Source of the DNA: Chelativorans sp. Marseille-P2723
GTDB taxonomy: Bacteria; Pseudomonadota; Alphaproteobacteria; Rhizobiales; Rhizobiaceae
Length of the DNA: 64,000 nt
Reading direction: 5' to 3'
NCBI RefSeq assembly: GCF_902809845.1
Contig: NZ_CADDWI010000007.1
Span: 248,001-312,000 of the forward strand
Each line of letters begins with the position of its first letter. Position 1 is the stretch's first letter. This document shows positions 11,014 through 33,358 of the stretch, in pieces. The translations under genes and the position numbers were made by a program. The notes below the pieces were generated by a model. That model did not search any database. It was not told the DNA's origin and was given only the letters and a program-made list of their open reading frames with translations.

Positions 11014-11448
11014 ATGGAAATGGATGAACAACTAGGAAAAAACACCGAAACGCTTATCGAGCTGACGGCGGATGTTGTTGCTGCCTATGTAAGCAACAAC
11101 CCGGTGCCGGCCACCGAGCTTCCAAATTTGATTGCTGATGTGCATGCAGCACTCGGCCGGGTGACACAGAGCGGCGAGCAAGTGCCTGTTGAAAAGCAGA
11201 AGCCAGCGGTCAACCCGAAGCGCTCGGTTCACGACGACTACATCATCTGTCTTGAAGACGGTAAGAAGTTCAAGTCGCTGAAGCGTCACCTCATGACTCA
11301 CTATGGGCTGACGCCGGAACAGTATCGCGAGAAATGGGGTCTTGATCCCAGCTATCCGATGGTGGCGCCGAGCTACGCTGCTGCCCGCTCAGCGCTTGCC
11401 AAGAAGATGGGGCTCGGCCGAAAGCGCAAGACGGCTGGCACCAAGTGA
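11014..11448 (+). CDS. mucR: MucR/Ros family transcriptional regulator
   Basis: The 144-residue protein belongs to the prokaryotic zinc-finger-like MucR/Ros family, global regulators of exopolysaccharide, motility and virulence/symbiosis genes in Hyphomicrobiales. The N-terminal oligomerisation region ([14 protein letters not shown]..) is followed by the DNA-binding domain [18 protein letters not shown] and [16 protein letters not shown]. Of the zinc ligands, Cys79, His92 and His96 are present, while the second cysteine position holds Asp82, as in several Mesorhizobium/Brucella-type members. A strong terminator lies 25 bp after the stop. Whether the start is the ATG at 11014 or at 11020 is open. 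Confidence 0.93.
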
Positions 11449-11595: not shown

Positions 11596-11877
11596 CTATT
11601 GACTGTCTGAGCGCCTCAAGCGGTCATAAGCCTGTTTGAGAGCGATGTGGCGGTTGATGTCGTAGCTCCAATGCCGGCGTATGCCCTTAAGCCGTTCACG
11701 TTCGATCAGGCGCGCGAGCCTCATGCAAATGGCGGCTCGTTCCGTGCCTGTGGTCTTTAAGGCAGTTGCAAGGTCGATACCGGATACAAGAAAGAAGGCG
11801 GCTTGCTGCCTTGCTTCGATGATCTCCCTGCCCTTTTTCGAGCGGAACGCCTCCGCTTCGGATCTGAACAACCCCAT
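11596..11877 (-). CDS. hypothetical protein, 93 aa
   Basis: A basic 93-residue soluble protein I do not recognise (MGLFRSEAEAFRSKKGREII..). Its interior is helical, with a pattern SGIDLATALKTTGTERAAICMRLARLIERERLKG. This could be a small helix-turn-helix, although no family is identifiable. The start at 11877 is chosen because GGAG lies 6 bp upstream of that ATG; the open frame continues to 11964 but the extra 29 residues are Pro/Arg-rich and unlike a protein N terminus. It is transcribed divergently from the DnaA-like gene at 12077 and faces mucR. Confidence 0.6.
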   Translation of the reverse strand: MGLFRSEAEAFRSKKGREIIEARQQAAFFLVSGIDLATALKTTGTERAAICMRLARLIERERLKGIRRHWSYDINRHIALKQAYDRLRRSDSQ

Positions 11878-12076
11878 GTCGATCTCCAACTGTTTGGGTC
11901 GAGATTGACGCCGCGGTGCCGGGTGGGGACAGATTCGGGCCGGAAAAATGTTCATTGTAGCCAAAGAACTAACGATTTTAGATAGTTAGAACTCTTTCCC
12001 TGAATTTTTTGTTCGCGTTATGTTCACGTCCAGGAGATGGCAGGCTATAGAGAATATATTCCTCTAATCGGAAGGG

Positions 12077-12502
12077 ATGTGTTCCGTGCAGTCGACCGCC
12101 GTAGCCAAGATTCAGAGTGAGGAAGGGGAGGAGATCATCCCTGCTTCCACGAGCGTGCGAAAGCTCAGTCCCGTAAATGATGAAAGGATCGCGGATATAT
12201 GTGAATGCGTGATGGATATTGTGGCCGCCCTTTTTAACGTCAGTGGAAAGGAGTTGCGGCGGCCTGATCGCTCCTCCACGAGCGTTGCCCGGGTACGGCA
12301 GATCGGCATGTATGTGGCGCATGTGACGCTGGGGCTCAACATGACAGAGATAGGGCGCGGTTTCGGGCGAGACAGAACCACCGTTCAGCACGCCTGCCAT
12401 CTAATCGAGGATCTGCGGGACGACGAGGATTTTGATCGTATCGTTCACATGACCGAGCAGGTCACTGCGGCTGCGTTTCGCCATAGGGGGATTGCACGTT
12501 GA
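12077..12502 (+). CDS. DnaA domain IV-like helix-turn-helix protein (GafA N-terminal/GafY-like)
   Basis: The 141-residue protein contains only the DNA-binding domain of DnaA. Residues about 74-112 read RQIGMYVAHVTLGLNMTEIG, then FGRDRTTVQHACHLI, which corresponds to DnaA's RQIAMYLAR...IGxxFGxRDHTTVxHA signature. No ATPase domain is present. In Rhodobacter GafA, the direct activator of gene transfer agent (GTA) genes, such a domain is fused to a C-terminal DUF6456-type region; in other Alphaproteobacteria the two parts are separate proteins. Here the next gene supplies that second part and overlaps by 4 bp. A complete GTA cluster lies about 9.5 kb downstream. A GTG at 12086, spaced 9 bp from GAAGGG, may be the real start. 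The GafY-like role is inference from domain and context. Confidence 0.75.
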   Translation: MCSVQSTAVAKIQSEEGEEIIPASTSVRKLSPVNDERIADICECVMDIVAALFNVSGKELRRPDRSSTSVARVRQIGMYVAHVTLGLNMTEIGRGFGRDRTTVQHACHLIEDLRDDEDFDRIVHMTEQVTAAAFRHRGIAR

Positions 12503-13314
12503 AAAGGCAAGAAGCGGGCGCAATGCGTATGAAAAAGGAGAGTTTGCGTGTGTTACGCTTCCTTTCCAGAGGGACCGCGGAGGGGCAGACAGGTGGGAAG
12601 GAAGGCATGGTGCTGCTCGACGGGGCAGATCGGGGTACGATATCTGTGACCGCCGCAACCCTTTCCATGCTTTTGCGACAGCGCATTGTTCTTTGTCGCG
12701 GGAAACGGTTTCTCTTGTCAGAGGAAGGTTTTGCCCTGGCAAAGCGCAGCAGTGGAGGCGAGCATGCTTTCAGGTGCCAGCATCAGGAGCTTTCCCAGAT
12801 AAGCATAAGTACGGAAGCTAGAGAGCAGACGGCCTGGGCGAATCTTGGCGAATCGCCCCTGGCGCTGCTTGCTCGAAGGCGCACGAAGAAAGGTGTACCG
12901 TTCCTTTCTGAAAGCGAGTTCCAAGCAGGTGAAAGGCTTCGGTCGGATTACACGCGCGCGCAGATTATTCCTCGGCTGGGCGTCAACTGGAGCAGCGCGA
13001 TCTCGAACTCCCGCCGCAGGAGCGGTGAAAACGGAATTGCGGAACTCACGGATGCTGCACTGGCAGCGCGTGATCGGGTAGACCAAGCCTTGAAAGCGGT
13101 GGGACCGGAACTGGCCGGAATTCTTGTCGATGTATGCTGCTTTTTGAAAGGGTTGGAGCGGGTCGAACTGGAGCGCGGCTGGCCGGTTCGTTCGGCAAAG
13201 GTGGTGCTCAAAACGGCTTTGTCAGCCTTGAGCCGCCATTATGAGCCTCAGGCCTTGAGCCGCAGCCAGACCATCCTGCATTGGGGCGCGGAAGACTATC
13301 GGCCGAGGATGTAG
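12499..13314 (+). CDS. DUF6456 domain protein (GafA C-terminal/GafZ-like)
   Basis: The product is about 260-271 residues, depending on the start: TTG 12499 overlapping the previous gene, or ATG 12523 or 12529. The C-terminal part (from about residue 115) has the DUF6456 hallmarks ESPLALLARRR, then FQAGERLRSDYTRAQIIPRLGVNW, and a helical end with CCFLKGLERVELERGWP. DUF6456-like sequence forms the C-terminal part of GafA, which contacts RNA polymerase in Rhodobacter. In Caulobacter the GafZ component of the split GafYZ system acts as an antiterminator of the GTA operon. The variable N-terminal half looks like a small winged helix (LSMLLRQRIVLCRGKRFLLSEEG). Translational coupling with the DnaA-like gene suggests they work as a pair. 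Function here is inferred. Confidence 0.72.
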   Translation: MKRQEAGAMRMKKESLRVLRFLSRGTAEGQTGGKEGMVLLDGADRGTISVTAATLSMLLRQRIVLCRGKRFLLSEEGFALAKRSSGGEHAFRCQHQELSQISISTEAREQTAWANLGESPLALLARRRTKKGVPFLSESEFQAGERLRSDYTRAQIIPRLGVNWSSAISNSRRRSGENGIAELTDAALAARDRVDQALKAVGPELAGILVDVCCFLKGLERVELERGWPVRSAKVVLKTALSALSRHYEPQALSRSQTILHWGAEDYRPRM

Positions 13315-13478: not shown

Positions 13479-13901
13479 CTAGGCAGCGCTGGCCGAACCG
13501 CTTGCCTCGTCCTTGATCCGCTGCACCATGGCACGCAGGCCGTTTGCACGTTGCGGCGTCAGATGCTCATCCAGGCCGAGCGAGTGCATCGTTTCCTCTG
13601 CGTCGATTGCGAGGATTGTGCTCGCCCGCTTGCCGCTGAACAAGGCCAGTATGATGGCGACGAGACCGCGCACGATATGGGCATCTGAATCGCCGCGGAA
13701 AACGAGTATCGGGTCAGCGCCTTCACCAAACTCGGTTAAGAGCCAAACCTGGCTGACGCAGCCGCGTACCTTGTGCCGCTCATTGCGCGCAGATTCGGGA
13801 TACTCCGGAAGACTGTTTCCCAGCTCGATAATGTAACGATAACGATCCTCCCAATCGTCCAGGAAGGCGAAATCGTCGCGTATGGTCTCAATGTCGATCA
13901 T
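13479..13901 (-). CDS. sufE: SufE family cysteine desulfuration protein
   Basis: This 140-residue protein accepts sulfur from the SufS cysteine desulfurase for iron-sulfur cluster assembly. It shows the SufE pattern WEDRYRYIIELG.SLP, then the active cysteine Cys48 in VRGCVSQVW, followed by HIVRGLVAIILALFSGK. The start at 13901 gives the usual SufE length; an in-frame ATG at 13946 would add 15 atypical residues. The suf operon itself is not in this window, which is common in this order, where sufE often stands alone near mucR-region genes. Confidence 0.9.
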   Translation of the reverse strand: MIDIETIRDDFAFLDDWEDRYRYIIELGNSLPEYPESARNERHKVRGCVSQVWLLTEFGEGADPILVFRGDSDAHIVRGLVAIILALFSGKRASTILAIDAEETMHSLGLDEHLTPQRANGLRAMVQRIKDEASGSASAA

Positions 13902-13976
13902 GCCTCGCATATAGTCATTTGACCGCGGGACGTCACGGAAAATCACCCTCGGGGAACGCTCTCACGGACCGTTTTA

Positions 13977-14270: not shown

Positions 14271-14491
14271 TATTCCTTCTCTGCCACGTCTGCCCCATGG
14301 ATAAGGCTCCAGAAAGGTGCAGATTTCGCTAAGCTGAAACCCAAAGCGCCGAAAAGGTGATTATACGGCCGTTCGGTTGGATCGAAGACGTCTTGGCAGC
14401 TAGCTTTCGGCTGGCAGGTTGCCGGAACTGCCTTCTCTTCGACAGCCCTTGAAACCTGGAAAGAGGCTGCAGGCGACGTTCTGTTAACCAT
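14270..14491 (-). CDS. candidate small protein, 73 aa, coupled to the DUF5330 gene
   Basis: I do not recognise this ORF. Support comes from context: the ATG at 14491 has AAGAGGA 8 bp upstream, and the stop overlaps the next start as TAATG, a usual sign of translational coupling. The product contains two closely spaced cysteines (CQPKASCQDVF) and a short hydrophobic C-terminal part (LFGALGFSLAKSAPFWSLI). No conserved domain is visible, and it could be a chance ORF in the divergent promoter region between the DUF5330 gene and the histidine kinase. The rest of this gap (14492-14645) shows nothing beyond single TTAAC boxes. Confidence 0.35.
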   Translation of the reverse strand: MVNRTSPAASFQVSRAVEEKAVPATCQPKASCQDVFDPTERPYNHLFGALGFSLAKSAPFWSLIHGADVAEKE

Positions 14492-14645
14492 GGCAGCATT
14501 CCTCTTGAGCACAACATGCCGGTTAACACCTTTTGACTGTGCTGCGCGTGTCTCAGCAGCGCGCGCTTATCCATTCCTTAAAGGGTGGATGCGAATTTCG
14601 GGTCCAGACCAGAGCCCGCCACGCGGATACGGCAGAGCGCGTCGA

Positions 14646-16433
14646 GTGAGTAGAATAAAGCCCATATTGTTAGAATGCTCCGAGCGTATCAGCGCCACCT
14701 GCAAGCGTCTGATCCATCCATCCGTGCGTGACAATGGAGAGCGCGAGCGTCAGCTTCGGCTGATGGGCGTGCTTTTGGCCGGTTCGGTGTTCGCTGCGCT
14801 GGCGGTACTGCAACCAGGAATTCAGAATTTCGGCGGAGCAGGCACTGTCGTCGTCGTCGCCATGGCATTCGGGGTGGGGCTTCTGTCGCCGATCACATTG
14901 ATGGGGACGGGGAAACGGGCTATCGCAGAAGCCATGTCACTGATCCTGGGGGCGGGAGCAGCCGCGCTGCTCATTGCTGCCGCTGGAGGACCAGCCTCGC
15001 CCATGGCGATCATGGCCGCAGCCCTCGCCCTGGAAGCAGGCTGGGTGGCGCGGACGCGCCGTGCCGCCGGCTGGAGTCTTTGTGCAATGGCGGCGGCGCT
15101 CCTTTCTGCTGCGATGCTGAAGGACATGGTCATTCCCAATGCCAAGGTCTCGGCATGGCACTGGCTGGTGCCGGCAGCCTATGCCGCCACGCTGGCTGCC
15201 CGCCTTTGGTCGGCACTGGGTGGGAGCGAACAAGACTCTGAAGAGCCTGCCACGGCGGTGGAGGATCTGATCGAGGCAGTGATCCTTCGTCTCTTGCCGA
15301 CGGGCGAGGTCGTCAAAGTCTCCGCGAAGGCGGAGGCGCTGCTTGGTGTTGCACCGGAAATGCTGCTTGGCAACGGGCTGTTCGAACGCGTACAGGTGGC
15401 GGATCGGGTGGAATGGCTGTCCGCTCTGACGGATTTGCGAGAAGGTGCGAAGGCAAGGACCCTGCGTGTGCGGCTGCGCGTTCCCCTTGAATCCGGCCTT
15501 GGTGCGGGGTCCAACTACGCGCCCTTTATCTGCGAGCTTTTTTCGCCCGCGCACCCGGAAGGCTTCGTGGCGGTGCTGCGCGCGGATTTCGCTGCAGCCG
15601 ACATTGAGGCCGCACTTGCGCAGGCGAGCGCCGCGGCCGCCGCTGCCGAGGAAGCTGTGCTTGCGCGAGACAAACTTCTTGCATCTGTAAGCCATGAACT
15701 GCGTACGCCGCTGAATGCCATTGTAGGTTTCTCTGAGGTGCTGGACAGCGAGATGTTCGGCTCTCTGGCGAACCAAAGGCAACGTGAATATGTCCGCCTC
15801 ATATATGAGGCGGGCGGGCACCTGCTGTCGGTTGTGAATGCAGTGCTCGATGCCTCTAAGCTGCAATCCAATTACAAGCCGCAGACGGAAACGTTCCGTT
15901 TTGACGAAGCGGTTCGATTGTGCATAGCGATGACTGCCCAGCAAGCACAGGCAAAATCGTTGAGGCTTGAGGCAGACATTTCCGAAGAGATCGGCGATAT
16001 AAGCTGCGACCGCCGGATCTTGCAGCAGGTCTTGATCAATCTCCTTTCGAACGCGGTGAAGTTCTCGCCTTCGGGAGAAGTGAAGGTAACGGCGCGGCGC
16101 GATGGAGACCGGCTTGACTTCACGGTGAGCGACACGGGAATAGGTATCTCCGCTGACGACCTGAAGGGGCTGGGCAAGCCGTTCCGGCAGGTGCAGGGGG
16201 ATCATTCCCATGAGGGAATGGGATTGGGCCTGGCATTAGTGAAGGGGCTTGTGCGTCTTCACGGCGGGGGAGTGAGCATCGAAAGCACGCCGGGGGAAGG
16301 CACGCGGGTTCATGTGTCCCTGCCGGTGGGAGGACTTGAGCGGCAAGAAGAGGATGAAGGGAGGGCCGCGGCAATAACTGGAGCGAACTGGAATGGCGGG
16401 TGGAACCATGAAACGGAACGCAAGACGGCATGA
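14646..16433 (+). CDS. membrane sensor histidine kinase
   Basis: From the GTG at 14646 the protein has 595 residues. A block of about six hydrophobic segments (residues 40-190) forms an N-terminal membrane sensor. A degenerate PAS-like region (about 215-320) and an Ala-rich coiled linker come next. The HisKA domain follows with His350 in LASVSHELRTPLNAIVGFSEVL, and the HATPase domain shows LINLLSNAVKFSPSGE, DTGIGIS and GMGLGLALVKGLV. No response regulator is adjacent, so it is an orphan kinase. The H-box is of the PleC/DivJ type. The frame is open back to 14490, but that part is low-complexity and overlaps the divergent gene, so a start near 14646 is favoured. The 3' end overlaps the next gene by 26 bp. 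Confidence 0.85.
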   Translation: MSRIKPILLECSERISATCKRLIHPSVRDNGERERQLRLMGVLLAGSVFAALAVLQPGIQNFGGAGTVVVVAMAFGVGLLSPITLMGTGKRAIAEAMSLILGAGAAALLIAAAGGPASPMAIMAAALALEAGWVARTRRAAGWSLCAMAAALLSAAMLKDMVIPNAKVSAWHWLVPAAYAATLAARLWSALGGSEQDSEEPATAVEDLIEAVILRLLPTGEVVKVSAKAEALLGVAPEMLLGNGLFERVQVADRVEWLSALTDLREGAKARTLRVRLRVPLESGLGAGSNYAPFICELFSPAHPEGFVAVLRADFAAADIEAALAQASAAAAAAEEAVLARDKLLASVSHELRTPLNAIVGFSEVLDSEMFGSLANQRQREYVRLIYEAGGHLLSVVNAVLDASKLQSNYKPQTETFRFDEAVRLCIAMTAQQAQAKSLRLEADISEEIGDISCDRRILQQVLINLLSNAVKFSPSGEVKVTARRDGDRLDFTVSDTGIGISADDLKGLGKPFRQVQGDHSHEGMGLGLALVKGLVRLHGGGVSIESTPGEGTRVHVSLPVGGLERQEEDEGRAAAITGANWNGGWNHETERKTA

Positions 16434-20013: not shown

Positions 20014-22164
20014 TCAAAGTGCCGACAGGGCGGCAGCCTCACCCGGCTTGCGAAGGGACGGCGCGGCGCGGAAGCGCTCTGCCATGGCCTCCAACATGCG
20101 CCGGGTGGCAACAGGCATGGCCTGGACCCCGCGCCTGCCGCCCAGGGCTGGGCCAGCGGCGCTGTTCCCGCTCGATGCGGCCACCAGTTTGTTCCCGTCC
20201 GGTAATGGGTTCTCAATTCCGGGAATAGGCCGTAATTCGATGTTCTGATGGGCGTAGGTCATGAACCTTTGCCACACCATTGCCGGAAGGGAGCCGCCTG
20301 TCATACGGCGGCTTGGATGATAATCGTCGTTGCCGAGCCAGACGGCGGCCACATAGTTGCCGGTAAAGCCAACATACCAGGCGTCCCGATAGGCCTGGGT
20401 AGTGCCTGTCTTGCCGGCGGAGCGAATGCCCTGAAGTGCCGCGCGCCTGCCGGTGCCGCTCTCCGGCACTAGTACCAGCATGGAGTTCATTGCCGCGGCG
20501 GCTTTTTGTGACAGCACTCGCTTGGGTGGAGGCGCATCGCGGGAGTGGTCGTAGATGATGGTGCCGGAGTGGGTCTGCAAGTGAACGATACCGTGCCGCG
20601 TTCCGGCATAACCGCCATTGGCGAATACGCTATACCCCGTCGCCTGGTCCATTACTGTCATGCCCGAGGTACCCAGAACCATAGTCTTGTGGCCATTCAG
20701 CTCCGATTCCACGCCCATTTCGGCAACGAGTTCCTGGATGGCTTCGATGCCGATGTGATCGCGAGCCAGCCGAACGGGAATCGTGTTGTAGGACCTCGCA
20801 AGTGCTGTCGCAAGCGATACGGTGCCTGCATAGCTGCGCCCGTAATTCTTGGGCGACCAGCCACCCCAGTTGATCGGTGCGTCCGGAATACGCGACTGTG
20901 GCGTGAAGCCCGCTTCTACGGCGGCGGCGAAGACATAGGGCTTGAAGGAGGAGCCTGGCTGGCGCTGTGCGCGCGTGGCACGGTTGAACTGGCTCTGGCC
21001 ATAGTCGCGACCGCCGACGATCGCGCGAACGGCTCCATTGGTTTCCAGCACCACGACGGCGCCTTCCTCCACATTATAGTCCTTGCCGTACTGCCTGAGG
21101 TGAAACTCCATCGACTCTTCCACCGCATCTTGAAGGTCCGGATCGAAGGTCGTGCGTGCAATCAGCGAATGTGAGGCGCCTTCTGGCACGATCTTCTTCA
21201 CTTCCTCGAAGGCCCAGTCGAGGAAGTAATCGGGGCTTTCACGCTGGTCCCTGTCGACAACAGCGGCGGGATTGAGCCGGGCAGACAGTACCTGCCCTTC
21301 GGTCATGAAGCCAGACTGGACAAGGTTGGAGAGCACCTCGTTCGCACGTGCACGCGCCGCAGGCAGGTTGATGTGGGGCGCGTAGCGGGCCGGTGCCTTG
21401 AAGAGGCCGGCGATCATGGCGGCTTCGGCGAGAGTGAGATCCTTGACCTGCTTGTTGAAGTAGAAATCGGCGGCTGCCGCGATTCCGAATGTGCCGCCTC
21501 CCAGATAGGCGCGGTCGAGATAGAACTGCAGGATCTCACGCTTGGAAAGGTTCGCCTCCAGCCACAATGCGAGGAAGGCCTCTTTGATCTTGCGCTCCAC
21601 TGTCCGCTCGTTCGACAGGAAGACGTTCTTTGCGAGTTGCTGCGTGATGGTCGAACCGCCCTGTACGATGGTGTTGGCGCGCATGTTCTCGGTAAGCGCC
21701 CGGAAGAGGCCGACAATGTCGATGCCGAAATGGTCGAAGAAGCGCCGGTCTTCCGTGGCCAGCACCGCCTCGATCACATGGTCAGGCATTTCCTCGACCG
21801 GGACGGAATCGCGCTGCCGGATGCCCCGTTGTCCGATCTCGTTGCCGTAGCGATCCAGAAAGGTGACAGCGTAATCATCCTGGGCGCGCCAGTCTCCCGC
21901 AGTTTCCACAAATGCAGGGGTGGCAAGTGCCAGCATGACCACAGAGCCGGCGGCCATCATCGTGGTAGCTTCGCCTGCCATCTCCACGATCGCTCTTTGC
22001 AGGCCGAAAACACGGAAGCGGCGAAAAAAGACGGTGAGGTTTTCCCAGAACTCGGAAGCCTTGAAGCCGGCTTCGTAGAGCGTGGAGTCAATCCAAGCGT
22101 CGATGTCGAGGAATCTTGTCGCCCTCGGGATTTTTTGTTTTCTCGGGCGGCGCTTTTGGATCAT
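20014..22164 (-). CDS. mrcA: class A penicillin-binding protein (PBP1A family)
   Basis: At 716 residues this is a bifunctional peptidoglycan synthase. After a basic cytoplasmic tail and one membrane helix (about 65-88) comes the glycosyltransferase domain with catalytic Glu138 in LATEDRRFFDHFGID, then QGGSTITQQLAKN, ERKIKEAFLALWLE and KREILQFYLDRAYLGGG. The transpeptidase domain has Ser405-x-x-Lys408 (GSSFKPY), SYN at 458-460 and KTG at 585-587. It therefore both polymerises and cross-links glycan strands in the periplasm. The C terminus has a short Gly/Ala-rich tail. Its promoter must lie in the long gap upstream that also drives the gene transfer agent cluster in the other direction. The symbol mrcA is by family only. 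Confidence 0.92.
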   Translation of the reverse strand: MIQKRRPRKQKIPRATRFLDIDAWIDSTLYEAGFKASEFWENLTVFFRRFRVFGLQRAIVEMAGEATTMMAAGSVVMLALATPAFVETAGDWRAQDDYAVTFLDRYGNEIGQRGIRQRDSVPVEEMPDHVIEAVLATEDRRFFDHFGIDIVGLFRALTENMRANTIVQGGSTITQQLAKNVFLSNERTVERKIKEAFLALWLEANLSKREILQFYLDRAYLGGGTFGIAAAADFYFNKQVKDLTLAEAAMIAGLFKAPARYAPHINLPAARARANEVLSNLVQSGFMTEGQVLSARLNPAAVVDRDQRESPDYFLDWAFEEVKKIVPEGASHSLIARTTFDPDLQDAVEESMEFHLRQYGKDYNVEEGAVVVLETNGAVRAIVGGRDYGQSQFNRATRAQRQPGSSFKPYVFAAAVEAGFTPQSRIPDAPINWGGWSPKNYGRSYAGTVSLATALARSYNTIPVRLARDHIGIEAIQELVAEMGVESELNGHKTMVLGTSGMTVMDQATGYSVFANGGYAGTRHGIVHLQTHSGTIIYDHSRDAPPPKRVLSQKAAAAMNSMLVLVPESGTGRRAALQGIRSAGKTGTTQAYRDAWYVGFTGNYVAAVWLGNDDYHPSRRMTGGSLPAMVWQRFMTYAHQNIELRPIPGIENPLPDGNKLVAASSGNSAAGPALGGRRGVQAMPVATRRMLEAMAERFRAAPSLRKPGEAAALSAL

Positions 22165-22368: not shown

Positions 22369-22530
22369 TTGATGGGCAATGGATATCCGCCGGAAAAGTT
22401 GCAAACGCCGATCATTAGCCGATTTCATATAAGCTCGACGTGCGGAAAGAGGAAGGCGGCGGTCAGCCGGGGCATTGCAGGATGCTGGGCAAGAACCGCA
22501 CGTTGATCTCAAAAGATAGGAATTTATTCC

Positions 22531-22559
22531 TTGACACCGTAACGGTGGTCAGGTAGGGT
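22531..22559 (+). promoter_or_regulatory. candidate GTA operon promoter with internal palindrome
   Basis: TTGACA at 22531-22536 is a perfect -35 hexamer. After 17 bp comes TAGGGT (22554-22559), a weak -10. The spacer starts with CACCGTAACGGTG (22535-22547), a perfect 13-bp palindrome that overlaps the last two bases of the -35 box. A consensus -35 combined with a poor -10 and an operator-like repeat fits a promoter that needs an activator or is held by a repressor. It is the only good promoter-like sequence in the 627 bp before the GTA genes. Confidence 0.5.
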
Positions 22560-22736: not shown

Positions 22737-22767
22737 AAGCGCTGTGCCTCCTGGCCGGCGCTTTTTT
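22737..22767 (+). terminator. terminator-like hairpin in the GTA leader
   Basis: AAGCGC (22737-22742) pairs with GCGCTT (22758-22763). Inside, GCC (22746-22748) pairs with GGC (22753-22755) around a TCCT loop, leaving a 3x2 internal loop; the stem runs directly into six T residues. It sits about 200 bp after the promoter candidate and 25 bp before the first GTA gene, so it should stop leader transcription unless it is bypassed. Confidence 0.6.
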
Positions 22768-22791: not shown

Positions 22792-23289
22792 ATGTCCCTC
22801 AGTTCTGCCGCGGCAAAGTTGCAGGCGGCGAGGGCGCTCCTGGAGGGCGCGCCGGTAAGCATCGATCTTCTTGCGCAGCTTATGGGGCGCAGCGAAAAGT
22901 ACCTGAAGGAACGAGCATTGCGGGAGGGCTGGCGGGACGCGGGTAGTAGCGCTGCCGAGCCAGAGGCACTCGAAAAGCGCCTTGTGGTGCTGTCCGATCA
23001 ACTCGTGGGAGATCTCGAAGCCGCTGGCGCTGAAGGACGCAGCACCGGCAGTTACGACAAGAGCCGTATCGATGCACTGTCCGTGATGCTGCGGATGGTG
23101 GAGAAACTCAGTGAAATGATTCGCGTGCCCGAGCGCGCGGCAGAGAAACAGAAAAGAAGCGATGCAGAACTGGCCGCCGCGCTCGCACTTATCGATGCCC
23201 GTATCGTGGAGATTGCCTGTGAACTCGCTGCCTCCCTGGGCAGTGAAGACCTTCAGACGACAGGAACTCGTCTACCGGCTGCTCGATGA
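22792..23289 (+). CDS. GTA terminase small subunit-like protein (g1 position)
   Basis: The 165-residue, mostly helical protein lies where RcGTA encodes g1, the small terminase subunit that helps the large subunit engage DNA for headful packaging. Its N terminus has a helix-turn-helix-like run (VSIDLLAQLMGRSEKYLKERALREGW, about residues 22-47), then long helices suited to ring oligomerisation (residues 60-125). GGGAG 6 bp upstream supports the ATG at 22792. The 3' end overlaps the large subunit gene. The call rests on position and helical pattern rather than on clear homology. Confidence 0.65.
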   Translation: MSLSSAAAKLQAARALLEGAPVSIDLLAQLMGRSEKYLKERALREGWRDAGSSAAEPEALEKRLVVLSDQLVGDLEAAGAEGRSTGSYDKSRIDALSVMLRMVEKLSEMIRVPERAAEKQKRSDAELAAALALIDARIVEIACELAASLGSEDLQTTGTRLPAAR

Positions 23290-24514
23290 ATGGTGGATGC
23301 ACGGCCGCCTGCCGCAATATCCGGTGGGCGCAAGGCTGAAGGATACATGGCTGGTACTGGGCGGACGCGGTTCCGGAAAGACGCGGCTTGGAGCCGAGTG
23401 GGTGAACGCGCTGGTGCGGGGCCTTTCGCCCTTTGCTGGGCGCAAATATGGCCGCATTGCTCTAGTGGGTGAAACGCTAGGGGACGTGCGTGAGGTGATG
23501 ATCGAGGGGCCATCAGGAATCCTGTCGGTCTCGCGCACGAACCGCCCTCGTTATGAACCAAGCCGCCGTCGGCTCGTGTGGGACGACGGAGCTGTGGCGA
23601 TGGTCTTTTCCTCGGAGGACCCCGACAGTTTGCGCGGGCCGCAATTCGAGGCGGCTTGGTGCGACGAGGTCGCGAAGTGGAAGAATGCAGAGGCAGTATT
23701 CGACATGTTGCAGTTCGGTCTGCGGCTGGGGGAGCGGCCGGTACAGCTTTTGACCACCACCCCCAAGCCCGTGCCCCTGATCCGCAAGCTTGTGGTGGCG
23801 GATGGGATTACGGTGACGCGGATGCGGACGGAAGAAAATGGAGCCCATCTGGCCCCCGCTTTCCTGCGAACTGTCGAACGCAATTATGCAGGGACAAGGC
23901 TGGGGCGGCAGGAACTCGACGGGGAACTGATCGATGATCGGGATGACGCGTTGTGGACGCGGGCCAGTCTGGAAGCAACCGTAGGGCAGGTGCTGCCGGA
24001 TGAATTGAGACGGATTGTCGTTGCGGTCGACCCTCCTGCAACGAGCCGCCGGACCTCCGACGCATGCGGCATCGTCGTTGCGGGGTTGGCGGAGGATGGG
24101 ACGGGCTGGGTCCTTCATGACGGCACCCTTAGTGGGGCGAAGCCGGAAAGATGGGCCGCATCGGTGACGGCGCTCTTCCGCCGCTTCGAAGCGGATACCA
24201 TTGTGGCTGAAGTGAACCAGGGTGGAGAAATGGTGGCCAGCGTGATTGCAACCGTCGATCCGACAGCACCAGTAAAGCCGGTGCGGGCCAGCCGGGGCAA
24301 GTGGGTGCGTGCCGAACCGGTGGCCGCGCTTTACGCGCAGGGAAGGGTGCGCCATGCCGCCCGCTTTCCAGAACTGGAGGACGAGATGTGCGACTTCGGC
24401 ACCGACGGTCTTTCGGGCGGGAGATCACCCGACCGCGTTGACGCGCTGGTCTGGGCCCTCACGGAGCTTATGCTCGGCTCCGCAGGTGAACCGCGCATCC
24501 GCGATTTCTCCTAG
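23243..24514 (+). CDS. GTA terminase large subunit (g2)
   Basis: From the GTG at 23243 the product has 423 residues. The ATPase domain carries Walker A GGRGSGKT at about residues 40-47, with a Walker B-like run ending in FEAAWCDEVAKWK. The C-terminal nuclease domain starts with the acidic motif VVAVDPPATSRRTSDACG and ends with PDRVDALVWALTEL. This is the DNA-packaging motor of an RcGTA-like particle, which fills heads with host DNA by a headful mechanism. The frame is open back to 23162, but that ATG would give a 128-bp overlap with the small subunit gene; the GTG gives 47 bp. The exact start is uncertain. Confidence 0.9.
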   Translation: MKTFRRQELVYRLLDEWWMHGRLPQYPVGARLKDTWLVLGGRGSGKTRLGAEWVNALVRGLSPFAGRKYGRIALVGETLGDVREVMIEGPSGILSVSRTNRPRYEPSRRRLVWDDGAVAMVFSSEDPDSLRGPQFEAAWCDEVAKWKNAEAVFDMLQFGLRLGERPVQLLTTTPKPVPLIRKLVVADGITVTRMRTEENGAHLAPAFLRTVERNYAGTRLGRQELDGELIDDRDDALWTRASLEATVGQVLPDELRRIVVAVDPPATSRRTSDACGIVVAGLAEDGTGWVLHDGTLSGAKPERWAASVTALFRRFEADTIVAEVNQGGEMVASVIATVDPTAPVKPVRASRGKWVRAEPVAALYAQGRVRHAARFPELEDEMCDFGTDGLSGGRSPDRVDALVWALTELMLGSAGEPRIRDFS

Positions 24515-24556
24515 TTAGCTCGCAACCTGCGCGTGCTGCGCGCAGATCATGAAGGT

Positions 24557-24598
24557 AGCGCGTTCATCGTGCGCCCAGCGGACGCACCGCGCTTTATT
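24557..24598 (+). terminator. terminator-like hairpin between terminase and portal genes
   Basis: AGCGCG (24557-24562) pairs with CGCGCT (24588-24593), and the inner GTGCG (24569-24573) pairs with CGCAC (24583-24587), with a 6-nt bulge on the 5' arm; TTATT follows. It lies in the 98-bp gap, one of the few non-coding gaps in the cluster. The bulge and broken T-run make it weaker than the hairpin after the capsid gene. Confidence 0.35.
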
Positions 24599-24612
24599 CG
24601 CAGGAATGACAA

Positions 24613-25803
24613 ATGGCTTGGACTTGGCCTTGGGCTCGAACCCCGGGACGGCAGAACGCGCCCCGCGAAGAGAAACACGCCGGCGGATACGGGTTCATTG
24701 CTCTGCACGGGCAGGGCGACGCGTTCTGGACGCGGCGCGACTACGCGGCCCTGGCGCGCGAAGGCTTCATGCGCAACCCTGTGGCACATCGGGCAGTGCG
24801 CATGATTGCGGAGGCGGCCGGGGCAATACCGTGGCTGGCCTATGAGGGCGACGCAGAGCTCGACACTCACCCGCTTCTCGATCTGCTTGCCCGTCCGAAC
24901 GAACGGCAGGCCGGACCGACTTTCATGGAAACGCTTTACGGCCATCTGCTTCTGTCTGGCAATGCCTATGTCGAATTGATCGAAACCGGTACGGGCGCGC
25001 GGGAGATGCATCTTCTGCGGCCGGACCGCGTAAGGGTGGTGGCGGATGCAAGCGGGTGGCCTCTGGCGCTTGAGCATCAGGCAGGAAACGCGAAGCGCAG
25101 CATATCTCTCGACGAGGAAGGCAGCGGGCTTCATCTCACGCTGTATCACCCGCTTGACGATCATTACGGCTTTGCACCTCTCGTCGCCGCGTTGCAGGCG
25201 CTCGACATCCATAATGCGGCTGCGCGCTGGAACAAGGCCCTGCTCGATAATTCCGCCCGGCCTTCGGGGGCGCTGGTCTATGCGCCCAAGGAAGGAGGAA
25301 ACCTTACCGACGAGCAGTTTGAACGGCTGAAACGCGAACTTGAGGAAGGCTATGCCGGCGCAAGGCGAGCCGGAAGACCGCTTCTTCTGGAGGGCGGGCT
25401 CGACTGGAAGGCAATGAGCCTTTCGCCCCGAGACATGGATTTCATGGAAGCAAAGAACGGGGCAGCACGCGATATCGCCCTGACGCTCGGCGTGCCGCCA
25501 ATGCTGCTTGGCATCCCCGGTGACAACACCTATGCCAATTATCAGGAGGCCAACAGAGCATTCTACCGCTTGACGGTTCTTCCGCTGGTGGGGCGCATCA
25601 CCCAGGAACTCGACAGGTTTCTCGCTCGCCGTTTTGGCGGGCAAGTGCGCTTGTCTTTCGATCTCGACCAGGTGGAAGGGCTTGCCGCTGAGCGCGACGC
25701 GCTCTGGAAACGCGTCAATGAGGCCACCTTTCTCAGCGATGACGAGAAGCGCGAGGCCGTCGGCTACGGCGTTGCGGAGGCAACTGCTGACTTCACGCGG
25801 TAA
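24613..25803 (+). CDS. GTA portal protein (g3), HK97 family
   Basis: The 396-residue protein belongs to the HK97-type phage portal family, which forms the dodecameric ring at one capsid vertex through which DNA enters and leaves. Typical stretches are NPVAHRAVRMIAEAAGAIPWLAYEG near residues 55-80, LYGHLLLSGNAYVELIE, the RPDRVRVVAD strand, and GVPPMLLGIPGDNTYANYQEANRAFYRLTVLPLVGRI in the C-terminal stem and crown region. It is followed after 33 bp by the g3.5-like gene. Confidence 0.93.
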   Translation: MAWTWPWARTPGRQNAPREEKHAGGYGFIALHGQGDAFWTRRDYAALAREGFMRNPVAHRAVRMIAEAAGAIPWLAYEGDAELDTHPLLDLLARPNERQAGPTFMETLYGHLLLSGNAYVELIETGTGAREMHLLRPDRVRVVADASGWPLALEHQAGNAKRSISLDEEGSGLHLTLYHPLDDHYGFAPLVAALQALDIHNAAARWNKALLDNSARPSGALVYAPKEGGNLTDEQFERLKRELEEGYAGARRAGRPLLLEGGLDWKAMSLSPRDMDFMEAKNGAARDIALTLGVPPMLLGIPGDNTYANYQEANRAFYRLTVLPLVGRITQELDRFLARRFGGQVRLSFDLDQVEGLAAERDALWKRVNEATFLSDDEKREAVGYGVAEATADFTR

Positions 25804-25836
25804 GGGCCGCATGCCCCCGCACAAGAGGAAACATCC

Positions 25837-26172
25837 ATGTTCGGATTTAGCGAGGCTACCTGGCTATGGCTCGCAAAGGCGGCTGGCGCGGTGGTCGGCT
25901 CGGCGATCTCGCTTGCCTATCTCCTGCCCTCCGGGCGCCGCGATGCTGCTATCCGCTTTGCCGTCGGGGTCGCCTGCGGCGTCGTCTTTGGCGGAACGGC
26001 GGGGCGGAAGATTGCAATTGAACTCGGCATCGCCGGACATCTGGCACCGGGAGAACTGGTGCTGATGGGGTCGGCGGCTGCGAGCCTGTGCGCCTGGAGC
26101 GCCATCGGCTTCATCATGCGGTTCCTTGGCGCCGGCGGAACGAACGAACCGCGCCATGAAACAAAGGACTGA
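25837..26172 (+). CDS. small membrane protein in the g3.5 position (DUF6107-like)
   Basis: The 111-residue protein has three hydrophobic segments (about residues 8-30, 38-57, 72-95) and a charged C-terminal tail. RcGTA also has a small gene, g3.5, between portal and protease, and rhizobial GTA clusters carry a DUF6107 protein here; I recognise the latter only loosely. The topology would suit a holin-like role, or a membrane anchor during head assembly, but neither can be shown from sequence. The stop lies 8 bp before the protease start. Confidence 0.7.
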   Translation: MFGFSEATWLWLAKAAGAVVGSAISLAYLLPSGRRDAAIRFAVGVACGVVFGGTAGRKIAIELGIAGHLAPGELVLMGSAAASLCAWSAIGFIMRFLGAGGTNEPRHETKD

Positions 26173-26179
26173 ACGTACA

Positions 26180-26863
26180 ATGAAGACAAGGATCGCCCTC
26201 CGCGGTGAGGAGCGAAAATATGCCGGGCTCGATATTGAACAGGTCGAGAGCAACGGCACCTTTTCCGGTTATGCAAGCCTCTTCGGCCGCGTAGATCTGG
26301 GACGCGACATTGTGGAGCCGGGCGCCTTCGCCGCCTCGATCAGGAAGCGTGGGGCGGCTGGCATCCGTATGCTCTTTCAGCATGATCCCAACCAGCCAAT
26401 CGGGACCTGGCGCGAGATCCGTGAGGATTCGCATGGCCTTTTCGTGCGGGGCAAGCTGGCTACGGGCGCAGCCAAGGCACGTGAGGTGCTGGAATTGATG
26501 CGAGACGGTGCGCTCGACGGGCTCTCCATCGGCTTTCGAGCGGTCCGCGCGGTGCATGAACCGCGAACTGGGATAAGGCGGATCAGGGAGGCTGATCTGT
26601 GGGAGATTTCGGTCGTGACATTTCCGATGCTGCCGGAAGCACGTGTGGAAAAGGTGAAAAGCGCATCGGCTGGCCGCGAATTGCCGACGCACCGAGAATT
26701 TGAGCGTTGGCTCACGCGGGATGCGGGGCTGACGCGCAGCGAAGCCAAGACCGTAATCGCACGCGGCTTCGCACACTTGCTGCGCGAGCGGGACGCCGCG
26801 CCGGCAGCGCCGGAGAGTCTGGCGGCGATGCTCCGCCGGGCGACAACCCTTCTTGAACAATAG
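26180..26863 (+). CDS. GTA prohead protease (g4), HK97 family
   Basis: The 227-residue protein is a U35/HK97-type serine protease that trims the capsid protein during head maturation. It shows SGYASLFGRVDLGRDIVEPGAF, the catalytic-type histidine in RMLFQHDPNQPIGTW and the serine in LDGLSIGFRAV, followed by EADLWEISVVTFPML. A C-terminal extension (about residues 165-225) is Ala/Arg-rich. The ATG at 26180 gives a family-type N terminus; earlier ATGs at 26126 and 26156 lie inside the previous gene. Confidence 0.92.
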   Translation: MKTRIALRGEERKYAGLDIEQVESNGTFSGYASLFGRVDLGRDIVEPGAFAASIRKRGAAGIRMLFQHDPNQPIGTWREIREDSHGLFVRGKLATGAAKAREVLELMRDGALDGLSIGFRAVRAVHEPRTGIRRIREADLWEISVVTFPMLPEARVEKVKSASAGRELPTHREFERWLTRDAGLTRSEAKTVIARGFAHLLRERDAAPAAPESLAAMLRRATTLLEQ

Positions 26864-26872
26864 GAACACTGA

Positions 26873-28129
26873 ATGACTGAGACGATGAATATGGGCGTCC
26901 TGGAATCGAAATCCGTTGCCGGAGACAGCGATTTTACAAGCGCCTTTTACGAGTTCATGAACACGTTCGAGGCGTTTAAGCAGGAAAACGACCGGCGGAT
27001 GAGGGATATCGAACGACGTTCGGCCGATCCGCTGACACTCGAAAAAGTCGACCGGCTTTCCGACGCGCTCGACGAGCAGAAGCGTCTCATCGACCGGCTG
27101 GTACTGAAAAAGGCCCGGCCAGCGCTGGGGCGGGATGGAGGCGCACCGCTCGTGAGCCTTGAGCACAAGCAAGCCTTCGAAAATTATATCCGCACGGGCG
27201 ACGACCGCCTACTGCGCGGGCTGGAAGAGAAGGCAATGTCCTTCGGCTCAGGAAAGGATGGCGGTTACGTCGTGCCGGAGGAGTTGGAAGCGGAGATCGG
27301 CAAGAGGCTCGCCGCCATCTCTCCGATCCGCTCCATTGCCGCCGTTCGCCAGGTTTCCTCGGCCGTTCTGAAGAAACCGTTTGCAGTTTCCGGCCCGGCT
27401 ACCGGCTGGGTGGGCGAAGCGGCCAGCCGGTTGGAGACGGATTCGAGTACGCTGGACGAACTCTCCTTTCCAACGGCAGAACTTTACGCAATGCCGGCGG
27501 CGACGGCCAACCTGCTGGAGGACAGCGTTATCGATCTCGATGCGTGGATCGCCTCGGAGATCGAAACCGCCTTCGCCGAGCAGGAGGGGACAGCCTTCGT
27601 GCATGGCGACGGCGCCAACAAGCCGCGCGGCTTCCTCAACTATCCTCAGGTGGAGGAGGGCAACTGGAGCTGGGGCAAGGTAAGCTACATGGCCACGGGT
27701 GTGGATGGGGCGCTGCCTAACGGCAATCCGGCGGACGTGCTGATCGATCTCGTCTATGGGCTCAAGGCCGGGTACCGTCAGAATGCAAGCTGGGTAATGA
27801 ACCGCCGAACCCAGGCCATGCTGCGGAAGCTGAAGGACGGGGACGGCAATTACCTTTGGCAGCCTCCGGCCACGCCAGGTGGACGCGCCATGCTGATGGG
27901 CTTCCCGGTAGTGGAGGCGGAGGACATGCCGAATGTGGCAACGGATGCGACACCAATCGCTTTCGGCGATTTCGGCCGCGGCTATCTGGTGGTGGATCGT
28001 ATGGGCGTGCGCGTGCTACGCGACCCTTACTCCGCCAAGCCCTACGTACTCTTCTATACCACGAAGCGCGTGGGAGGCGGTATCCAGAACTTCGAGGCTA
28101 TAAAGCTCCTGAAGTTTTCCGCCAGCTAA
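26873..28129 (+). CDS. GTA major capsid protein (g5), HK97 family
   Basis: The 418-residue protein has an N-terminal coiled coil (residues about 25-85, EFMNTFEAFKQENDRRMRDIERR..), equivalent to the HK97 delta/scaffold region that the prohead protease removes. An HK97-fold domain follows: DGGYVVPEELEAEIGKRLAAISPIRSIA, then AFVHGDGANKPRGFLNY, AMLMGFPVVEAEDMPNV and FGDFGRGYLVVDRMGVRVLRDPY. The mature shell protein probably starts near residue 95-110. A very strong hairpin terminator follows within 80 bp. Confidence 0.94.
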   Translation: MTETMNMGVLESKSVAGDSDFTSAFYEFMNTFEAFKQENDRRMRDIERRSADPLTLEKVDRLSDALDEQKRLIDRLVLKKARPALGRDGGAPLVSLEHKQAFENYIRTGDDRLLRGLEEKAMSFGSGKDGGYVVPEELEAEIGKRLAAISPIRSIAAVRQVSSAVLKKPFAVSGPATGWVGEAASRLETDSSTLDELSFPTAELYAMPAATANLLEDSVIDLDAWIASEIETAFAEQEGTAFVHGDGANKPRGFLNYPQVEEGNWSWGKVSYMATGVDGALPNGNPADVLIDLVYGLKAGYRQNASWVMNRRTQAMLRKLKDGDGNYLWQPPATPGGRAMLMGFPVVEAEDMPNVATDATPIAFGDFGRGYLVVDRMGVRVLRDPYSAKPYVLFYTTKRVGGGIQNFEAIKLLKFSAS

Positions 28130-28204
28130 GCCTGTTGGCGATCCTTTCCTGGCCGTCGAGAGCGGCATCTCCTCCCACCCCTTCCGCTTTCCGGCCAGGC
28201 AGCG

Positions 28205-28236
28205 ACGGCCCCGGCGATAACGCCGGGGCCGTCTTT
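28205..28236 (+). terminator. strong hairpin terminator after the capsid gene
   Basis: ACGGCCCCGGCG (28205-28216), an ATAA loop, then CGCCGGGGCCGT (28221-28232): a perfect 12-bp G+C-rich stem with a tetraloop, followed by CTTTCATT. It sits in the 137-bp gap between major capsid and connector genes. A partial terminator here would give excess capsid over tail proteins. Confidence 0.7.
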
Positions 28237-28266
28237 CATTGAATCACTTCTTGAAGAGAGGCGTGC

Positions 28267-28836
28267 ATGACGCTGTTTCGTACGGTCGATCCCACTGTCG
28301 AGCCGGTCTCGCTTGCCGAAGCAAAGGCACATCTGCGCGTGGCGCATGATAGCGAGGATGCATTGATTTCAGACCTTGTTCGAACGGCCCGCCAAGAGGT
28401 CGAACAGATGACGGCGACCGCGCTGATCCATCAATGCTGGCGGCTGGTGTTGGATGACTGGCCGCAGGAGGAGGTGGTGCTGCTGAAGCGGAAGCCGGTG
28501 CGGGAAATCCTCTCGGTGACGGTTTTCGACGCTGACGGGGCCGGCTCCGTGATGGCCCCCGATGCCTATCAACTCGATGCCGCCTCGACGCCGGCACGGC
28601 TTCACCTCGCCGACCGGCCGACGCCAGGACTGGCACTCAATGGGATCGAGATCGATTTTTCCGCCGGTTTCGGTGAGGCGGGAACGGACGTGCCGGACCT
28701 GCTGAAGCGGGCAATGCTACTTCTTGTCGCCCATTGGTACGAGTTCCGCGGTGCGTTTGGCCCTGACAGCCAACCCGTTTCCGTTCCTGATGAATACCGG
28801 CGGTTGCTTGCAGCCTGGCAAGGTCCGAGGCTGTGA
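28267..28836 (+). CDS. GTA head-tail connector/adaptor (g6)
   Basis: The 189-residue protein matches the phage gp6-like connector family (phiE125 gp8 type): PVSLAEAKAHLRVAHDSEDALISDLVRTARQEVEQMTATALI at the N terminus is diagnostic, and LLKRAMLLLVAHWYEFRG lies near the end. Such proteins form a ring below the portal and start the neck. The stop overlaps the next start (GTGATG). Confidence 0.92.
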   Translation: MTLFRTVDPTVEPVSLAEAKAHLRVAHDSEDALISDLVRTARQEVEQMTATALIHQCWRLVLDDWPQEEVVLLKRKPVREILSVTVFDADGAGSVMAPDAYQLDAASTPARLHLADRPTPGLALNGIEIDFSAGFGEAGTDVPDLLKRAMLLLVAHWYEFRGAFGPDSQPVSVPDEYRRLLAAWQGPRL

Positions 28837-29171
28837 TGCAAATGCTTTTCATAGATCCGGGACGGTTCCGCACGGAACTGAAGCTGCAGAAGGCCAAGAC
28901 CGTCCAGGACGGTCTTGGCGGACACAGCGTGGAATGGCGAGAGATCGGAGTGGTTCTGGCGCATGTGGAGCCGGTAAGTGCCCAAAGCCGCTTTCGGGCG
29001 GGGCAGTTCCACGAGACCGTCTCGCATCGGATCACTCTGCGCTTTCGCCAGGACGTGCGGAGCGGGATGCGTTTCGTAAAGCAGGGAAGGGCGCTGGAGA
29101 TCGTCGGTGTCCAGGATGCCGATGAAACAGGTCGGTATCTGATCTGTCTGACACGTGAGGAAGGTCGATGA
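28836..29171 (+). CDS. GTA head-tail stopper/adaptor (g7)
   Basis: The 111-residue protein is of the phage head-tail joining (SPP1 gp16/HK97 gp9-like) family: MLFIDPGRFRTELKLQKAKTVQDGLGGHSVEWREIGVVLAHVEP, then TVSHRITLRFRQDVRSGMRFVKQGRALEIVGVQDADETGRYLICLTREE. It closes the neck after packaging. The start may be ATG 28836 or 28842. It overlaps the following small ORF as ATGA. Confidence 0.9.
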   Translation: MQMLFIDPGRFRTELKLQKAKTVQDGLGGHSVEWREIGVVLAHVEPVSAQSRFRAGQFHETVSHRITLRFRQDVRSGMRFVKQGRALEIVGVQDADETGRYLICLTREEGR

Positions 29172-29356
29172 AGGTGACGATGCGATTGACGCTCGATGGC
29201 CTTGTGCGCGCCATGCGCGCCAAAGCACATGCTGAGGCCGGTGCCGTCGAAAGCGGAACCTATCGGGAGGCCCTTGAGCGCTTCGAAATGCGCCGGAGGG
29301 CGAACATGCGCAGCAAGGCACGCAGGGGCAGTGACAATGACCGCAGCGGCGATTGA
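29168..29356 (+). CDS. small basic protein between stopper and tail terminator
   Basis: The 62-residue, Arg-rich protein is unrecognised; it begins in the stop codon of the stopper gene (ATGA) and overlaps the tail-terminator gene by 20 bp, so it is probably translated. Many HK97-like phages carry a gp10-family neck protein at this place, which is about twice as long; this could be a reduced version, but no motif proves it. Confidence 0.55.
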   Translation: MKVTMRLTLDGLVRAMRAKAHAEAGAVESGTYREALERFEMRRRANMRSKARRGSDNDRSGD

Positions 29357-29738
29357 GTTGCAGCGGGCGGTCGCAAAGAGGCTAGGTGAGGAAGCCGACC
29401 TGGTCGCCGAGATGCGCGGAGCCAAGTTCCACGACGTCGCGCCCGCCAATCTGACCTTTCCCTATATCACCTTCGGCCGCGCCAGCACGTATGACTGGAG
29501 CACCGCGACAGAGGAAGGAAGCGAGCATCTTTTCGCGCTGCATATCTGGTCGACCTACAAGGGGCGGAAGGAGGCGCTGAGGCTCATGGACATGGTGCGA
29601 GCGGCGCTACATGAGGGGGAGCTCAAGTTTGACGACCATCACCTAGTCAGCTTGCGACTGATTTCTACCGAAATGCGCTTTGACGAGGCTATTTCCGCCT
29701 ATGAGGGAGTGATGCGGTTCCGCGCGCTCGTGGAATAG
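29337..29738 (+). CDS. GTA tail terminator, DUF3168 family (g8)
   Basis: The 133-residue protein shows the DUF3168 pattern: AAIELQRAVAKRLGEEADL, HDVAPANLTFPYITFGRA, and HLFALHIWSTYKGRKEALRLMDMVRAALHE. Such proteins cap the tail tube and join it to the neck. The ATG at 29337 (ACAATGACC) is taken as start because it begins the family-typical N terminus, 20 bp inside the small gene. An 84-bp gap follows. Confidence 0.9.
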   Translation: MTAAAIELQRAVAKRLGEEADLVAEMRGAKFHDVAPANLTFPYITFGRASTYDWSTATEEGSEHLFALHIWSTYKGRKEALRLMDMVRAALHEGELKFDDHHLVSLRLISTEMRFDEAISAYEGVMRFRALVE

Positions 29739-29822
29739 CGCGACACCGAGAGATCAAGCGCGAACGAGCGGCATCCGCCCGCTTCCGCACGCCACAATTT
29801 CACACATTTAAGGAGACCTTCA

Positions 29823-31360: not shown

Positions 31361-31373
31361 GCTCGGAGGTAGA

Positions 31374-33354: not shown

Positions 33355-33358
33355 GTTC

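Follow-up and report, generated by a model that had tools for sequence, protein, structure and literature searches.

The gene pair at 12077-13314 of the window, by which we mean the whole 64,000-nucleotide stretch of Chelativorans sp. Marseille-P2723 analysed here, is probably a gafYZ operon (split gafA) that activates the gene transfer agent (GTA) cluster 9.5 kb downstream, with a RogA-type repressor holding both promoters. This reading draws on four features of the DNA: membership of both proteins in their families, order-wide linkage of regulator and GTA, one palindrome found at both promoters, and a further palindrome within the core promoter of the GTA. In the proposed mechanism, GafY would aid RNA polymerase at the GTA promoter and GafZ would load at the palindrome between -35 and -10, so that polymerase could pass terminators through the 14-kb GTA operon, as reported for Caulobacter in the passages on the GafYZ mechanism of Gozzi 2022 (PMC9632790) and Tran & Le 2024. 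A RogA-type, LexA/CI-like repressor bound to TAGGA-N6-TCC at both promoters would hold off the activator and the structural operon directly and release them together.

The proteins themselves are known. Split gafA in Rhizobiales was noted by Fogg 2019, and passages of Sherlock & Fogg 2022 describe Hyphomicrobiales two-gene gafA operons with mucR upstream and sufE downstream, so the suggestion of the first-pass annotation that a GTA role had been overlooked in this order does not hold. The relevant parts of Gozzi 2022 (PMC9632790) count 759 GafZ homologues, 494 of them with an adjacent GafY, in 1,331 genomes, and those of Kogay and co-workers 2022 report gafA in 196 of 208 genomes and suggest its co-evolution with the GTA. 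The linkage and the GTA-promoter operator in this order are not described in the passages of the open literature searched (PMC6363796, PMC9638019, PMC9632790, PMC9765227, PMC11150451, PMC8601537, PMC13236601). Apparently new here are a conserved putative GTA promoter whose -35 and -10 flank a palindrome, in the layout of Caulobacter's GafZ site, as well as TAGGA-N6-TCC at both predicted promoters, gafZ just before terL in four viral contigs and one genome of another order, and a DUF6477-like gene divergent from gafY. What the analysis adds is the precise prediction of promoters, operators and binding sites of GTA control in this order, where the combined marker TAGGA-N6-TCC next to TTGACnnCGTnACG located GTA promoters without annotation. 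To our knowledge, no RcGTA-type particle has been induced on purpose in this order; if the predicted repressor does hold both promoters, removing it would show directly whether these GTAs are functional.

The gene pair and its neighbours

The genes of the region are as follows.

11014-11448, plus strand: mucR/ros regulator gene, 5' neighbour (PF05443, E 1.4e-52)
11596-11964, minus strand: small gene divergent from gafY, distant DUF6477 relative (phmmer and Pfam matches of relatives)
12077-12502, plus strand: gafY-like gene, DnaA domain IV HTH (PF08299, E 6.9e-17; family alignment)
12499-13314, plus strand: gafZ-like gene, DUF6456 (PF20057, E 3e-49; family alignments; model pLDDT 84)
13479-13946, minus strand: sufE, 3' neighbour (PF02657, E 1.4e-45)
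14490-16433, plus strand: histidine kinase between gafYZ and GTA (NCBIfam kinase models, none shown over its cut-off)
20014-22164, minus strand: penicillin-binding protein (PBP) gene, divergent from the GTA cluster (named from sequence, without family scan)
22792-23289, plus strand: small terminase-like (terS) first GTA gene (by position)
23162-37255, plus strand: GTA head-tail cluster, terL to gp15 (Pfam and position)

The gafY ORF (ATG start, 141 aa) and the gafZ ORF (TTG start, 271 aa, with a further in-frame ATG at 12523) overlap by 4 bp, and Pfam places Bac_DnaA_C on GafY (61.7 bits against a cut-off of 31.5) and DUF6456 on GafZ (167 bits against 26.3), confirming the HTH protein and overlapping DUF6456 protein read from the letters at first pass. 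GafZ is the sole DUF6456 match at E<=0.001 across the 3.77-Mb genome; among 14 named control genomes, the domain also matches in Caulobacter vibrioides. Against PDB sequences GafY gave five matches at E<=0.01, all of them DnaA, and GafZ gave none at E<=1 against solved-structure sequences. The predicted GafZ structure (pLDDT 84, pTM 0.62) had no Foldseek match in the PDB at E<=0.001; its weak matches (E ~0.5-1, probability mostly 0.84-0.95) were KorA and sigma factor chains (sigma region 4), the latter consistent with the sigma-like HTH reported for Caulobacter GafZ in the relevant part of Tran & Le 2024.

Since GafZ has a GafY-like ORF immediately 5' in 29 of 30 loci from the family and in 26 of 30 from the order, both sets being the top-scoring DUF6456 matches and no random sample, the pairing is not due to chance. 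Related loci were collected with a narrow GafZ alignment as query, the best 80 of at least 575 being kept; among these the closest named GafZ relatives are Chelativorans (top four, 60-62%). In four genomes of a single family, f34 (L004, L020, L027, L028), phmmer detected no GafY next to GafZ, and four further loci (L002, L017, L021, L025) have a GafZ of ~190-199 aa with a shortened N-terminus and GafY immediately 5'.

The pair had been taken for the two parts of GafA, and it does match both ends of fused GafA-type proteins. A 356-aa protein of this type from another alphaproteobacterial order (L062) has DUF6456 at its C-terminus (E 1.2e-52), and its N-terminus aligns with the GafY profile (hhalign, single-pair E 2.4e-7). 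Similarly, gp38 of Roseobacter phage RDJL Phi 1 carries a C-terminal DUF6456 (E 9.1e-11) and aligns with the GafZ profile (single-pair hhalign E 5.8e-9) and, over residues 9-65, with the GafY profile (single-pair hhalign E 1.9e-6). Both parts therefore aligned in the profile comparison that had been proposed, with L062 and RDJL Phi 1 gp38 as partners rather than R. capsulatus GafA itself. One phage protein family, phrog_31864, also spans both: its profile matches GafY over positions 5-62 (E 1.9e-5), whereas the GafZ match covers 252-297 (E 2.8e-4). In gene 59 of Rhodobacter phage RcPutin (L091, 8013-8618), a partial DUF6456 is joined to Trans_reg_C, a response-regulator output domain, in one protein.

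The small gene divergent from gafY was detected by phmmer in 58 of 80 named loci (again the best 80 of at least 575), and its family keeps the motif E-R...HW.YDLNRHIAL. The window copy has no Pfam match at E<=1 and does not reach the DUF6477 cut-off, and profile comparison of the small protein with single DUF6477 proteins (by hhalign) and with RDJL Phi 1 gp36 was not significant; its structural model had no Foldseek match at E<=0.001. The link to DUF6477 comes from intermediate relatives: 5 of 36 aligned family members match the domain at E<=0.5 (best 3.9e-6), and three relatives (L143, L148, L157) exceed the curated cut-off. At L061 and L062, a DUF6477 gene is divergent to the gafA gene. The part of Sherlock & Fogg 2022 on R. 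capsulatus describes rcc01866 as divergent to gafA, with its loss leading to immature particles; we infer that rcc01866 is a DUF6477 protein and that 11596-11964 is its likely counterpart by position and family.

Downstream, the GTA cluster extends over ~22.8-37.3 kb, with Pfam matches for TerL, DUF6107, protease, capsid, tail tube, gp13 (PF09931/PF09356) and gp15 with GTA_TIM. The products that we take to be TerS, portal, tape measure and gp14 were placed by position and by the usual GTA gene order rather than by Pfam match. The distance from the end of gafZ to terS, 9.5 kb, agrees with the earlier figure of about 9 kb.

Two database records carry similar neighbourhoods. One labelled 'Bacteriophage sp.' (L090, MW462191.1, 18480-21398) has an annotated transcriptional regulator, a DNA-binding protein, a GafZ match and a sulfur acceptor protein; with this mucR-gafY-gafZ-sufE order amid genes of ordinary bacterial kind, the record resembles a piece of bacterial chromosome. 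The other, labelled Bacillus subtilis SK6B4 (L144, JAHREI010000009.1), has a gafYZ neighbourhood of Hyphomicrobiales type and is probably contamination or a mislabelled contig.

Linkage of gafYZ and the GTA

With DUF6456 as proxy for GafZ and GTA_TIM (gp15) as proxy for the GTA, 163 of 199 genomes of the order have GafZ and 140 have the GTA: 134 have both, 6 the GTA only and 30 neither, a few of the GafZ matches being weak. The co-occurrence that the first pass proposed to check is strong (odds ratio 23, kinship ignored) yet not strict, as 29 of the 163 GafZ genomes have no gp15. A family sample of 101 genomes has GafZ in 81, the GTA in 76 and both in 74.

Closeness of regulator and GTA, which had been pointed out for this stretch, is real and is the rule in the order, not a peculiarity of one genome. 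Among the 127 order genomes with listed places for both, they share a contig in 67 and lie within 70 kb in 60 of these, with the GTA codirectional and downstream of gafYZ in 52; the corresponding family counts (74 genomes with both) are 54, 52 and 48. Genes on separate contigs (order 60, family 20) are uninformative on linkage, and all linkage counts ignore relatedness. When only assemblies of <=10 contigs whose gene places are listed are counted, 21 out of 34 are linked, against 0.035 expected per genome with kinship ignored; G093, G179 and G194, which have both genes and an unlisted GafZ place, were omitted from this set. In a class sample of 190 genomes, with the window and two order members removed from the linkage count, 12 have both and 8 have them on one contig, six within 70 kb, one at 71 kb and one at 212 kb.

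Linkage could nevertheless be without regulatory meaning, gafYZ and the GTA both being old and the intervening gene order simply kept. We give this roughly an even chance, and it is compatible with the reading preferred here. In its favour, family distances range over 12.7-87 kb, plus one genome at 1.7 Mb, and neighbouring genes are retained along with the pair: in 20 relatives, selected because gafYZ and GTA are linked, GafY, GafZ, sufE, the kinase (for which we claim no GTA-specific role), the PBP gene, terL and portal were matched in all 20, mucR in 16, the small divergent gene in 13 and terS in 11. Mere kept gene order, however, leaves unexplained both the palindrome at the two promoters and the position of gafZ before terL in viral contigs, which are described below.

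Two putative promoters and a proposed shared operator

The putative control sites are as follows.

12023-12051, plus strand: putative gafYZ promoter TTCACG-N17-TATAGA (by eye; resembles TTCACn-N17-TATAA in 6/20 relatives)
12051-12062, no strand: putative RogA-type operator at the gafY promoter (AGAATATATTCC), one mismatch to GGAA-N4-TTCC
22517-22530, no strand: putative RogA-type operator at the GTA promoter (TAGGAATTTATTCC), directly adjoining its -35
22531-22559, plus strand: putative GTA promoter, -35 TTGACA at 22531-22536, 17-nt spacer, -10 TAGGGT at 22554-22559
22535-22547, no strand: palindrome CACCGTAACGGTG between -35 and -10, candidate GafZ-binding element
22744-22767, plus strand: terminator-like hairpin and T-run in the leader before terS (terminator scan)

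On the 5' side of terS the window reads TAGGAATTTATTCC-TTGACA-N17-TAGGGT, with CACCGTAACGGTG between the hexamers, the position of the Caulobacter ZBE. Of the 20 linked relatives, 18 share this design with the window, and 17 of these 19 have TAGGAA directly 5' of -35; L192 has no such GTA promoter and L196 gave an unrelated match only. The pattern TTGACNNCGTNACGGTN7TAG (<=1 mismatch, operator excluded) occurs at 64 places in 59 of the 199 genomes of the order, its reversed control at 27. For 33 of the 64, gp15 follows on the same strand at a distance of 8-25 kb, and every one of the 10 exact matches belongs to this group; for the others, gp15 is on another contig (15), not listed (11) or elsewhere (5). 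The third pair of the palindrome is C-G in 7, G-C in 15 and unpaired in 11 of the 33, i.e., paired in 22/33. Two matches without operator, L236 (G152) and L230 (G159), lie away from the listed GTA, and G159 has four gp15 matches. A chance match as the origin of the GTA promoter was rejected on the positions of the order-wide pattern and the distribution of operator sites.

A generic sigma-70 scan missed the GTA promoter, we suppose because TAGGGT fits the -10 consensus at only 3/6. The leader is estimated at ~226 nt. Its terminator-like hairpin is one of three such sites in the region against 2.9 expected in shuffles, which is chance level, and predicted folding of the window leader is no stronger than that of shuffled sequences (z 0.04); across relatives, hairpins occur in 6 of 19 leaders against 2 of 57 control windows, and are thus not a conserved feature.

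A pattern for the gafY promoter matched 8 of 21 sequences, six in the TTCACn-N17-TATAA form and the window not among them. The operator predicted there in the window lies on and just past the putative -10, and another equally good GGAA-N4-TTCC-like site is at -89. Among loci with a GafY ORF and sufficient upstream DNA, GGAA-N4-TTCC (<=1 mismatch) precedes gafY in 24 of 29 family loci, at varying sites (~4.5 expected in shuffles), in 9 of 27 order loci (2.2 expected) and in 4 of 12 class loci (1.5 expected). The longer TAGGA-N6-TCCTA (<=1 mismatch) precedes it in 18 of 29 family loci (0.04 expected) and more sparsely in the order, at 4 of 27 (0.08 expected), and in 2 of 12 class loci (none in shuffles).

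At the GTA end, 22 of 30 fetched promoter places carry TAGGA-N6-TCC (<=2 mismatches) within 30 bp upstream, 21 of them abutting -35. For these 22, gp15 lies within 25 kb in 13, at 59 kb in one, on another contig in five and is unlisted in three; none of the 8 places without operator has a listed gp15 within 25 kb on its own contig. In 21 loci totalling 418 kb, all 17 exact TAGGA-N6-TCC sites fall in two promoter intervals that add up to 36 kb, six upstream of gafY and 11 between the PBP gene and terL. Genome-wide, the operator is not enriched in the window's genome (33 places at <=1 mismatch, against 72 for the reversed control), although exact TAGGAANNNNTTCCT occurs there once, at 22517. Nor is operator-plus-TTGAC (TAGGA-N6-TCCTTGAC) enriched in the class sample, with 6 of 190 genomes against 8 control places; of the six, only the window and G420 have it at a GTA by the queries used. 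In four other alphaproteobacteria (L287-L290), TAGGA-N6-TCC immediately precedes a TTGAC promoter whose -10 is TATA-like, and no GTA gene was found close to it.

The palindrome common to both promoters agrees with the RogA element in the literature, the RogA-bound Caulobacter gafYZ promoter having two GGAA-N4-TTCC repeats (Gozzi 2022, PMC9632790, in the part on RogA), and from this we predict a RogA-type repressor on the GTA promoter as well. In the same part of that paper, RogA enrichment is confined to gafYZ and CCNA_02002 and does not extend to the GTA promoter; if the GTA promoter is repressed directly here, the wiring differs from that of Caulobacter. Further XRE-type repressors act on gafYZ in Caulobacter, as far as the passages on them go. 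A putative RogA-like protein, so called from its LexA/CI type (Caulobacter RogA itself is CCNA_00080), occurs in 148 of 199 genomes; 137 of these are among the 163 that have GafZ, and the other 11 lack it. Candidates in the window's genome are LexA, a 220-aa CI-like S24 protein (L260) and an XRE-S24 protein.

The palindrome might instead be GafY's own site, GafY serving as activator at the GTA and autoregulator at gafY, which we consider unlikely. Its place against the GTA -35 would be a good one for an activator touching sigma, and passages on Caulobacter GafY report its interaction with RpoD (Tran & Le 2024) and its enrichment upstream of both gafYZ and the GTA cluster (Gozzi 2022, PMC9632790). 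The fit to the RogA element argues against it, as does the GafY element mapped in Caulobacter (ACTATG, -123 to -113 region; Tran & Le 2024, promoter passages), and at the gafY promoter a site on or just after the putative -10 is what is expected of a repressor.

Possible ancestry, possible loss and known systems

In 4 of 7 viral-contig matches (L172, L174, L175, L176), which may be phages or GTAs, gafZ lies 0.2-2.3 kb before terL, and genes for portal, protease and capsid come next. A TTGAC promoter with a palindrome, operator absent, stands between gafZ and terL in L175 and L176; no promoter was found there in L172 and L174 by the patterns used. G420, a genome from outside this order, has gafZ, then the operator and a TTGAC promoter, then terL and the remaining GTA genes. 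This suggests that gafZ was formerly the gene before a late promoter. With somewhat less than even confidence, we propose that GTA control in Hyphomicrobiales is a kept phage late-gene module, in which gafZ stood before its own promoter and terL (cf. Q/pR'), a host RogA-type repressor came to act on both promoters via one operator, and a DUF6477-like maturation gene has stayed attached.

The same-genus G286 (L263) has no gp15 match but has mucR, the small gene, gafYZ, sufE, the kinase, the PBP gene, the promoter, terS and terL; no portal or later GTA gene was found within the ~6 kb fetched past terL, and it looks like a decaying GTA. G250 and G191, also without a gp15 match, have terL, portal and protease. 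That the pair serves this organism as a general regulator unconnected with the GTA is very improbable: it would accommodate the GafZ genomes lacking gp15 and the fetched stretches of G236, G244 and G255, which have gafYZ and no GTA gene (that of G244 ending soon after the PBP gene), but not the GTA genes kept by G286, G250 and G191 or the strong GafZ-GTA association.

Among the closest known systems, the split gafA of Hyphomicrobiales in Sherlock & Fogg 2022 has the gene pair, mucR upstream and sufE downstream in common with the window; GTA linkage, operators and the DUF6477-like neighbour go beyond the passages concerned. Caulobacter crescentus GafY/GafZ (CCNA_01111/01112) likewise form a split pair in one operon (Gozzi 2022, PMC9632790, passage on the operon), and the RogA-bound GGAA-N4-TTCC at their promoter has its counterpart here, where a RogA-type element is also predicted at the GTA promoter. 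The promoter passages of Tran & Le 2024 place a palindrome (ZBE) between -35 and -10 of the Caulobacter GTA promoter, of different sequence from that here, and a leader of similar length (ATG at +251 there, ~226 nt here), whereas the -35 is AATCAT there and consensus here. By locus numbers, Caulobacter gafYZ lie far from the GTA; here they are linked. In R. capsulatus, too, gafA is far from the GTA cluster. GafA there is a single polypeptide, in contrast to the two genes here, but it is alike in its two parts and its divergent neighbour (rcc01866 there, DUF6477-like here), as far as the passages on rcc01865 go. Finally, lambda Q/pR' is alike in having a binding element between -35 and -10, an analogy drawn in a passage of Tran & Le 2024, and in the position of gafZ just before late genes in viral contigs, a likeness for which we claim no sequence relation.
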